Source: Acidimicrobiales bacterium (GTDB taxonomy: Bacteria > Actinomycetota > Acidimicrobiia > Acidimicrobiales > JACCXE01). From it: 58,460 bases of DNA. Where the stretch lies: NCBI GenBank assembly GCA_035546775.1, contig DASZWD010000027.1, positions 1 through 58,460 of the forward strand, given 5' to 3'. The notes under the pieces are model-generated. The model made no database searches and was not told where the DNA came from. It worked only from the letters and a program-made list of their open reading frames with translations. Positions 3,996 through 6,957 of this stretch are shown piece after piece. A program made the translations under genes and the position numbers. The stretch's first letter is position 1. Every line of letters starts with the position of its first letter.

Positions 3996-4858
3996 AGGTG
4001 GGGCTCGTCGGCGCCGGGCCGTGGGCGCACATGGTGCACGCGCCGGTGCTGGCCAACAGTCCCGATACCGAACTCGTCGGGATCTGGGCGCGCCGACCCG
4101 AAGCCGCCGAGAAGCTGGCGGGTAAGCACGGCGCCGTCGCGTACACCGACTACGGGGCGCTGCTCGACGCCTGCGACGCCGTTGCGTTCTGCGTCCCGCC
4201 CGACGTGCAGGCCGACATGGCGGTCGCCGCGGCGAAGGCCGGCAAGACGCTGCTGCTCGAAAAACCGATCGCGCTCGACCTCGCCGCCGCCGAACGCCTC
4301 GTCGCGGCGGTCGACGCCGCGGGCGTCTCCACCGTCGTGCTGTTGTCGTTGCGCTACGCCGACTCGGTACAGGCGTTTCTGGAGGAGGCGCGGGCGATCG
4401 GCCGGCCCCTCGGCGGGCGCATGGCCTTCGTCTCCGGAGCGCTGCTCGACGGCAGTCCGTTCGCGACGCCGTGGCGACTCGAACGCGGGCCGCTACCCGA
4501 CCTCGGTCCGCACGCCATCGATCTCGTCGACGCCGCCCTCGGTGCGATCGTGAACGTCACCGCCGCCGGCGACCCGCTCGGCTGGGTGTCGCTGCTGTGC
4601 GAACACGACAACGGCTCGACGAGCACGGTCAACCTGTGCGCCACCGCGCCGCAGGGCGGCATGAGTCGCATCGAGGTGTTCGGTGACGCGGGCGTCGCCA
4701 TGCTCGATGCGTCGTCGGCGGCCGACGCCACGTCGATGATGCGGGTGGCCACCGCTCTCGCCGCCGCTGCCCGCGGGGAGGCGGCTGACGCGCCCGATGT
4801 GCATCGCGGCCTGCACATCCAGCGCATCATCGAGTCCGCCGTGTCGCAGCTCGGTTAG
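3980..4858 (+). CDS. Gfo/Idh/MocA family NAD(P)-dependent oxidoreductase
   Basis: A 292-residue enzyme with an N-terminal Rossmann fold (VGLVGAGPWAHMVHAPVL, residues 6-23) and the family motif LLLEKPIALD, whose Lys lies near the nicotinamide. The C-terminal domain has GPLPDLGPHAIDLV, carrying the usual catalytic His. Members oxidise or reduce sugars, inositols or related polyols; the substrate is not evident. Starts at GTG 3980 inside the end of alkB, and ends four bases into the convergent PAP2 gene. Confidence 0.88.
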   Translation: MAEKVKVGLVGAGPWAHMVHAPVLANSPDTELVGIWARRPEAAEKLAGKHGAVAYTDYGALLDACDAVAFCVPPDVQADMAVAAAKAGKTLLLEKPIALDLAAAERLVAAVDAAGVSTVVLLSLRYADSVQAFLEEARAIGRPLGGRMAFVSGALLDGSPFATPWRLERGPLPDLGPHAIDLVDAALGAIVNVTAAGDPLGWVSLLCEHDNGSTSTVNLCATAPQGGMSRIEVFGDAGVAMLDASSAADATSMMRVATALAAAARGEAADAPDVHRGLHIQRIIESAVSQLG

Positions 4859-5619
4859 TCAATCGCCGGAGCGGCGGCCGCCTCTTCGGGCTCGACGCCC
4901 TCCGCAAGGGGGTCGGTGCGGCGCTGACCGTGGTCCTCCCGCCACACCTCGAACACGGCGACGGAACCGACGAGCCACGCCGCGCCGAGGACGTAGCCGC
5001 CGAGGACGTCGGAGATGTAGTGCACGCCGAGCGCAAGGCGGGAGAAGCCGATCGCTGCCACCCACACCGCGACCCCGGCGACGGCGACCGGCCGCCACCG
5101 CCGCGCCACGAGCGGCAGGAGCACGAGCAGCGCGGCTCCGTAACAGACGAGCGACGACATGGCGTGGCCCGACGGGAAGCTTTTGCCGTACGCCGTCATG
5201 ATGGGATCGCTGAAGGACGGCCGCGGTCGCGACACGGCGAGCTTCACGACCGTGTCGATCAGGCTGCCGCCGAGCGACACGACGACGAGGAACAGCGCCA
5301 GCTTGCGCGCTTGGCGGACCAGCAACCACACCACCGGGATCCCGACCAGGGCAACGAGGAACACCGGCTTGCCGGTGAAGGACAGGAACTTGAGCAGGGA
5401 GATCACGGCGCGGTGGTGCACCACGCGGCCGTGAAGCGACCGGGCGGCGCTCCTGTCCCACTGCGTGAGCGGTCCGTGGGAGGTGACCTCGTGCAGCAGG
5501 TAGCCGAAGGGCAAACCCACGAGCGCAACCGCGCCGGCAAGCAGCGCCTCACGGACGCCGAAGCGTGACGCGGGAGGGAGAAGGTCGACCGTCGTCGCAG
5601 GGTAGCGATGATCCGCCAA
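4855..5619 (-). CDS. PAP2 family membrane phosphatase
   Basis: A 254-residue integral membrane phosphatase with about six helices. All three PAP2 signature blocks are present: [17 protein letters not shown] and [12 protein letters not shown], giving the catalytic His residues and phosphate-binding Arg residues. Likely substrates are phosphatidate, diacylglycerol pyrophosphate or undecaprenyl pyrophosphate; the sequence does not decide. The start appears to be TTG 5619, as no ATG or GTG lies suitably upstream. It begins nine bases after the stop of the diacylglycerol-kinase-like gene, so the pair is likely one operon. Elsewhere in actinobacteria PAP2 and lipid kinase domains can be fused. Confidence 0.9.
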
Positions 5620-5628
5620 CCGAGCGCG

Positions 5629-6066
5629 TCAGTCGCGAAGAGGGGGCACGGCCACGCGCAACGCGCGCGGCTTCTTCGCGACGGTGAACTTCGCCGGGCC
5701 GTCGTCGAGGGTCATGGCGGTCCACTCGCAGTAGACGTGGCAGCGGGCGAGCCGGCCCGACACCATCACCGCGGCGGCGAAGCGGGTACGCGAGCACCGA
5801 TCCGAGAGCAATTGAGCAAGATCGTCCGCTTTGTCGAGTTCGTGGACATCCGCCGCCGGCAGCGCCTCGCGCAAGGCGTCGGTCGGAGCGGGCATGAACG
5901 CCGGCCCGGCCGACGGGTTCACGACGAGGCGCAACCCGTTGCCGGCGGTCGTGGGGCGCGGATCGCCCTCCGGAATGCGCCGGGGCCAGCCGTGCCGGCT
6001 GTTCTTGGGCCGTCGAGGCACCACGACCGTCCGGAACCAAACGCCCGCGGCGGCCACCAGCAGCAT
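5629..6066 (-). CDS. Diacylglycerol-kinase-like protein with the central catalytic region missing
   Basis: An intact 145-codon frame with an N-terminal membrane segment ([10 protein letters not shown]), then [10 protein letters not shown] at about residue 45, which resembles the start of a DagK/YegS lipid kinase, and a C-terminal segment [20 protein letters not shown] resembling the end of that family. The nucleotide-binding GGDGT-type motif and the roughly 150-200 residues that should lie between them are absent. I read this as an in-frame internal deletion leaving a non-catalytic remnant; it could also be a short family of its own. ATG 6066 is used (TTG 6069 also possible). It sits directly upstream of PAP2. 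Confidence 0.45.
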
Positions 6067-6148: not shown

Positions 6149-6315
6149 CTCCCGGTTCGCAAATCGACGTCCGCGGGCGCCCGCATGGTCCACCTCCGCG
6201 TGGGCCATGGCACTCCGGGAACCCCGTGGCACAACCGAATTCGCGCTCCGTCTGCGCTTGCCTCTTGGGGCAACGCCGCAGGCGGAGCGTCCGCGTGAGA
6301 AGAGACAGGCTCGAA

Positions 6316-6957
6316 ATGGCAACCAAAGCGATCGTCGGCGAGAAAGTCGGCATGACCCAGGTGTGGGACGAACAGCACCGGCTGGTCCCGGTGACCGTGC
6401 TGCGCGTCGTCCCTGCTCGCGTTGTGCAGGTGAAGACGTCCGACCGTGACGGCTACAGCGCGGTGCAGGTCACCTATGGGCAAGTGAAAGCGTCGCGGGT
6501 CAACAAGCCCGAAACCGGCCACTTCGCCAAGGCCGGCGTCGAGCCGGGGAAGAAGCTCGTGGAACTGCGCCTCGACGACACCAGCGCGTACAACGTGGGC
6601 GACTCGATCGGCGTCGACGTGCTCGCCGCCGGCGACAAGATCGACGTCACGGCCGTCAGCAAGGGCAAGGGCTTCGCCGGCGGCATGAAGCGCCACAACT
6701 TCAAGGGCCAGGGCGCCGGGCACGGTAACCACAAGAAGCACCGCGCTCCGGGCTCGATCGGCGCCTGCGCCACGCCGTCGCGCGTGTTCAAGGGCACCCG
6801 CATGGCGGGCCGCATGGGCGGCGAGCAGGTCACCACGCTGAACCTCGAAGTCGTCGAAGCCGACGCCGAGCGCGAGCTGCTGCTCGTCAAGGGCAACGTG
6901 CCCGGTCCCCGGGGCGGCCTCGTCTTCATCCGTGACGCCGTGAGGGGGCGCAAGTAG
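6316..6957 (+). CDS. rplC: 50S ribosomal protein L3
   Basis: A 213-residue large-subunit protein that binds 23S rRNA early in assembly and reaches towards the peptidyl-transferase centre. Recognised by [12 protein letters not shown] at the N-terminus and [20 protein letters not shown] in the central extension. ATG 6316 gives the standard [15 protein letters not shown] start. First gene of the long ribosomal operon here; rpsJ, its usual upstream neighbour, is absent from the window. Confidence 0.98.

Follow-up and report, generated by a model that had tools for sequence, protein, structure and literature searches.

The window, by which we mean the whole 58,460-nt stretch of Acidimicrobiales DNA that was analysed, holds a short reading frame beside the gene of a PAP2-superfamily phosphatase, which raises the question of what this frame encodes and why it is still open. 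It had been proposed that the frame preserves the two ends of a DagK/YegS-like lipid kinase and lies intact next to the phosphatase gene. Both statements are borne out by our analysis: the 145-codon ORF is followed after 9 nt by an intact PAP2 gene, and it matches a full-length kinase profile built from 15 relatives in three collinear pieces, at model positions 6-90 (61.4 bits), 257-286 (10.5 bits) and 305-325 (9.8 bits) of 326. Because the second and third pieces are weak singly, the C part was put to a shuffle test, in which its best score was 95 and none of 1000 shuffles exceeded 49; for the N part the best score was 236, with 68 as the highest of 500 shuffles. Chance is excluded as the source of the kinase match at both ends. 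Judged by these matches, the ORF is a DagK/YegS-type lipid kinase cut down by two in-frame deletions (Table 1). Its third-position GC content is still gene-like (0.877, against 0.890 for PAP2); the value computed for rplC came from a wrong frame and was excluded.

Table 1. Features of the remnant kinase gene and its neighbours (positions in the window).
Feature	Position	Strand	Description
PAP2-superfamily phosphatase	4855..5619	-	Intact, TTG start, 254 residues; PF01569, E 1.5e-19
TGA stop and 9-nt spacer to PAP2 start	5620..5631	-	Frame shared with PAP2; Shine-Dalgarno match at best 3 of 6
Remnant dagK ORF	5629..6066	-	145 codons + TGA; ATG at 6066, TGA at 5631-5629; profile match, alignment
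Kept C part 2	5632..5703	-	24 residues, end of kinase C domain; profile, alignment
Junction 2	5703..5704	-	17 residues absent, DGET motif included
Kept C part 1	5704..5799	-	32 residues, one more than in relatives; profile, alignment
Junction 1	5799..5800	-	165 residues of G168 absent, GGDGT included
Kept N part	5800..6066	-	89 residues: predicted N-terminal helix (judged hydrophobic by eye), linker, first beta-alpha-beta-alpha of kinase with NPSAG motif
rplC	6316..6957	+	Divergent neighbour (named by eye)

The missing blocks were mapped by alignment to 23 full-length relatives (the sequences scoring above 300 bits on the kinase profile, duplicates removed) and by pairwise alignment to the kinase of genome G168, the closest full-length relative found, to which the kept part is 51% identical. 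The original prediction of one missing block, with the ends joined directly, stands only in part: the GGDGT block is indeed gone, but a second block, carrying the DGET motif, is gone as well, so that 165 and 17 residues are lacking relative to G168. The longer gap runs from just after helix 84-88 of the G168 model up to just before helix 258-268 and takes in the GGDG nucleotide-binding motif, and the DGE motif near the C-terminus falls in the shorter one. In an alternative alignment to the G046 kinase, the first deletion may split into 71 + 93 residues around a four-residue relic. Altogether the remnant shows two deletions and one insertion, all of whole codons. Among the columns invariant in the 23 relatives, 49 of 56 are deleted and the remaining seven are all unchanged; with columns at least 90% conserved, 69 of 83 lie in the gaps and all 14 of the kept ones are intact.

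The extent of the loss can be read from structure models. The full-length G168 kinase (L060), modelled by AlphaFold with pLDDT 83.6 and pTM 0.82, shows the fold shared by DgkB, YegS and sphingosine kinase (PDB 2qv7, 2qvl, 2p1r, 2bon, 2jgr, 3vzb): its kinase part matches 2qvl at a Foldseek E of 3.8e-22 and aligns by VIA-align to sphingosine kinase 1 (3vzb; Z 24.4, rmsd 3.3 over 279 residues) and to DgkB (2qv7; Z 22.3, rmsd 3.4 over 262 residues). Of this fold the remnant still has the NPSAG motif and the beta-alpha-beta-alpha at the N-terminus, but more than half of the domain is gone, together with GGDG and the DGE motif. In sphingosine kinase 1, the similarity to DgkB led to the prediction that the Asp and Glu of motif 5 coordinate magnesium (PMC4466670); equating motif 5 with the DGE motif is our own reading. 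Neither kinase activity nor the known mode of ATP or magnesium binding would be expected of the remnant.

We considered whether the 145 residues might belong to another complete family. A Pfam scan of the ORF returned no family up to E 10, DAGK_cat (PF00781) included, and an NCBIfam scan gave no match; the lone PDB sequence match, to 6cp8 (CdiA) at E 1.1, was taken as chance, and no solved structure was matched by Foldseek at E <=0.001 with the remnant model, which is of low confidence. In the genome of the window, PF00781 was detected only on contig C16, in one other full-length DAGK_cat protein with a frame of 310 codons.

Recurrence of the same deletion in several species had been named in the original prediction as support for a conserved short form. 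It was looked for in relatives, in the order and in the class, sets that sample larger groups and overlap in their genomes. In a search of 59 relatives, six genomes matched the remnant, its own included; four of the five other matches lay towards the N-terminus of frames 351 to 746 codons long, and the best, in G046, had 51% identity in a frame of 388 codons. Among 397 genomes of the order, 22 matched, again with the genome itself, and G168 was added, with 49% identity along 95 residues and a frame of 486 codons. A 12-sequence profile, with up to five candidates scored per genome, found the kinase subfamily essentially full length in 21 of these 397 genomes, at 398 bits or more, with matches starting at model positions 1 to 3, or at 25 in one case, and ending at 324 or later; the next match below 398 bits was a distant kinase at 219 bits. 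The matches of two of the 21 genomes include a TGA, which in the loci concerned, L017 and L023, is the frame end. Among the matches listed for the order, none but the window's (model 5-89) lies in a frame of fewer than 200 codons. The class search matched seven of 395 genomes, the window's own included, and yielded no credible short form; the match in G485 was weak, in a frame of 133 with two TAG inside. G359, G190, G024 and G182 were considered as other short forms, but their matches were weak, in short or broken frames and without a match to the kinase profile, and were taken as chance. Within the best 80 of 368 PAP2 loci from named genomes, the kinase subfamily lies upstream in 12 and spans the profile in every one of them; weaker kinase matches (33 to 84 bits) at 15 of the 80 loci were set aside. 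Among the genomes searched, the short form was thus found only in the genome of the window. In the kinase at L073:3044-3973, a separate in-frame gap was seen, with about 19 residues of the C-terminal region missing and both catalytic motifs retained.

The other genome of the genus that was examined, G001 (77% complete), has a PAP2 gene at 61% identity with no dagK beside it, and nothing on its 5.3-kb PAP2 contig matched the kinase profile; the gene before PAP2 is there a divergent membrane-protein gene, DedA-like as named by eye. With the short form in one genome only and G001 without dagK at this place, the expected support from several species fails, and a full-length gene in a sister genome, which would have pointed to a collapsed assembly, did not turn up either. 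A DAGK_cat protein on contig C31 of G001 was considered as the missing gene and rejected: it scores 219.6 bits on the kinase profile, against 465.8 for the G168 kinase, its match starts at model position 36 and it stands in another neighbourhood, so that it was taken as a distant paralogue. That the true gene is full length and the remnant an artefact of assembly or binning is very unlikely. The draft state of the genome (75 contigs) would allow for such an error, but it would have to produce two separate whole-codon deletions with a coherent 32-residue piece in between, while leaving PAP2 and rplC intact on the two flanks.

The confinement of the short form to a single genome, the PAP2 gene of G001 that is already without dagK, and the other full-length DAGK_cat protein retained in the genome are all points in favour of a plain recent pseudogene, in which whole-codon deletions would have arisen by chance, no selection would act on the frame and the gene will be lost. 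We regard this explanation as quite possible, though less likely than not. Without selection, two deletions and one insertion would all consist of whole codons in about 1 of 27 cases, before allowing for the fact that the feature was chosen for its open frame, and the short distance to PAP2 offers a possible reason for selection on that frame.

The rates of change bear on the age of the deletions. When G046 serves as outgroup, the kept pieces show 17 changes on the lineage of the window and 18 on that of G168 (p 1.0); of five outgroup ratios the test was applied to this one, and the use of G046 as outgroup is an assumption, the window, G168 and G046 being about equally distant from each other (pairwise identities 71/136, 70/137 and 68/136). 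Four other outgroups gave 16:15, 12:16, 17:13 and 6:15 changes (window:G168), and for PAP2 of the same pair the ratios were 24:25, 22:25, 24:21 and 22:30, with 35:17 for one further outgroup. There is no marked surplus of changes in the window over the intact G168 gene, and the neutral share of the branch would be at most 5, 10, 24 or 40% for an assumed omega of 0.05, 0.1, 0.2 or 0.3. Long free drift would give such a surplus; as the kept residues have changed about as often as those of intact G168, either the deletions would be recent or the remaining pieces would still be constrained, two cases between which a single genome cannot decide. Together with the gene-like third-position GC, these equal rates suit the young event that a plain pseudogene implies.

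Continued constraint is what would be expected of a functional short protein, in which the N-terminal helix, the first half of the kinase N lobe and the two C-terminal pieces form a non-catalytic partner or anchor of PAP2. The intact state of all kept invariant and nearly invariant columns, and a number of changes not markedly above that of the intact relative, are in line with this proposal. We nevertheless consider it unlikely. The model of the remnant is poor (pLDDT 63.9, pTM 0.42), far from the values for the full-length relative: pLDDT is 71 to 89 for residues 41-90 and falls to about 50 in the C half. The model matched no solved fold at the threshold given above, no second species was found in the order and class searches, and the helix and linker part fits the 24-sequence consensus least well, in 5 of 15 columns. 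It is quite unlikely, too, that the kinase was turned into a small membrane-anchored, non-catalytic PAP2 subunit, by which a kinase/phosphatase pair would have become a regulated phosphatase alone. The original prediction had left the choice between a regulatory or PAP2-binding role and recent decay; decay fits better, and nothing directly supports a role.

The junction with PAP2 suggests a reason for the open frame. The phosphatase gene is intact: in an alignment of eight homologues, K126, R133, P134, P149-H152, R194, H200 and D204, which we take to be the known PAP2 signature positions, are invariant. The TTG at +9 is the only in-frame start that retains the conserved PAP2 N-terminus, the next candidate lying 33 codons inside, and no clear Shine-Dalgarno site precedes it; a promoter and terminator scan found nothing. 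Of the remnant's two other frames, one is open to 68 nt within PAP2, and in the remaining one the stops closest to the PAP2 start lie 95 nt upstream and 214 nt downstream of it. The remnant and PAP2 stand in one frame, separated by a single TGA and three codons, so that readthrough would give a fusion.

The spacing in relatives was tabulated for the eight adjacent dagK-PAP2 pairs among the 12 loci with the kinase upstream. Measured from the dagK stop, their nearest possible PAP2 starts lie at -4, +1, +94, +4, -4, +19, +3 and +5 nt; six pairs range from a 4-nt overlap to 5 nt past the stop, and the other two have +19 and +94. In the four loci left out of this table (L066, L068, L071 and L076), kinase and PAP2 are about 650-720 nt apart. 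The arrangement in the window would be compatible with termination-reinitiation. Huber et al. 2023 (PMC10666635) report that restart depends strongly on distance, at about 20-60% for +13/14 nt and almost nil by about 20 nt, give 15 nt of the upstream gene as sufficient for restart, and describe E. coli gene pairs at +9 to +12 as likely initiated independently, with space for a Shine-Dalgarno site.

We favour, at just short of an even chance, the explanation that the remnant is a decaying, catalytically dead gene whose frame is held open via coupling to PAP2 and whose deletions are recent. It is proposed that a DagK/YegS-type kinase gene once lay in the same transcription direction as PAP2 and that two in-frame deletions, seen in the alignment, took out the GGDG and DGE motifs. 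Ribosomes finishing the remnant would stop at the TGA and restart at the PAP2 TTG 9 nt on, and the frame would still be open because these ribosomes go on to translate PAP2. A frameshifted remnant would end far from the PAP2 start and lower PAP2 output, which an in-frame loss would not do; the deletions would be young relative to the split from G168, as the rate comparison suggests. The remnant polypeptide itself most likely does nothing. The three collinear kinase pieces, the loss of most invariant columns, the frequent close neighbourhood of dagK and PAP2 in relatives, the TTG at +9 as the one suitable PAP2 start, the stops of the two other frames, the reported distance dependence of restart and the indels made up of whole codons throughout all speak for this explanation. 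The +9 spacing counts against coupling, lying outside the commonest -4/-1 overlaps, and so does the independent initiation held likely for E. coli pairs at +9 to +12. PAP2 does not generally depend on dagK, since the kinase lies far off in four of the 12 loci and none precedes PAP2 in G001. Coupling alone predicts drift of the kept amino acids, yet all 14 nearly invariant columns are intact, so that recency is needed too. A further point against is that a frame kept by luck through two deletions, a chance of about 1 in 9, is not rare when the feature was picked for its open frame.

On the other side of the remnant, rplC lies without rpsJ before it; in the genome of the window rpsJ is found on another contig (G000 C51:7281-7565) after a tuf-like gene (rplC and tuf named by eye). 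The G168 genome likewise has about 1.2 kb between rpsJ and rplC, and as the two genes are parted in both genomes the S10 operon seems to be split there. Just before rplC, at 6225-6316 on the plus strand, is a strong hairpin with about 20 base pairs. The folding energy of this stretch is -42.8 kcal/mol (z -2.4), a value reached by 2 of 200 shuffles. No Rfam family reached its gathering score anywhere in the window, and the hairpin is possibly a ribosomal-protein leader.

The locus can be compared with several related arrangements. The dagK-PAP2 pairs and PAP2-DagK fusions of Acidimicrobiales and other actinobacteria have the same gene order, orientation and kinase subfamily as the window, whose copy has additionally lost the kinase core. 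An N-terminal PAP2 domain scores over the Pfam cut-off in the kinases of L062, L064, L069, L073 and L075, falls below it in L061 and is not found at E 0.01 in G168 (L060), G046 (L003), L067 and L076, a graded loss among the kinase relatives. The window likewise resembles in-frame remnants upstream of coupled genes in that a short upstream ORF stops close to where the next gene starts. Among open-licence PMC papers we found none on such a DagK remnant and none on DagK and PAP2 in Acidimicrobiia.

Taken as a whole, the remnant most likely reflects gene decay of an ordinary kind, unusual though it looks. It looks like one stage of a stepwise erosion that includes PAP2-kinase fusions, kinases in which no PAP2 domain is detectable, the form in the window that has no active site, and the genome of G001 with no kinase at this place. 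The locus suggests the more general idea that translational coupling may filter the deletions that a dying upstream gene tolerates, and it carries a warning for annotation, as an ORF of this kind would be neither a kinase nor a new family.
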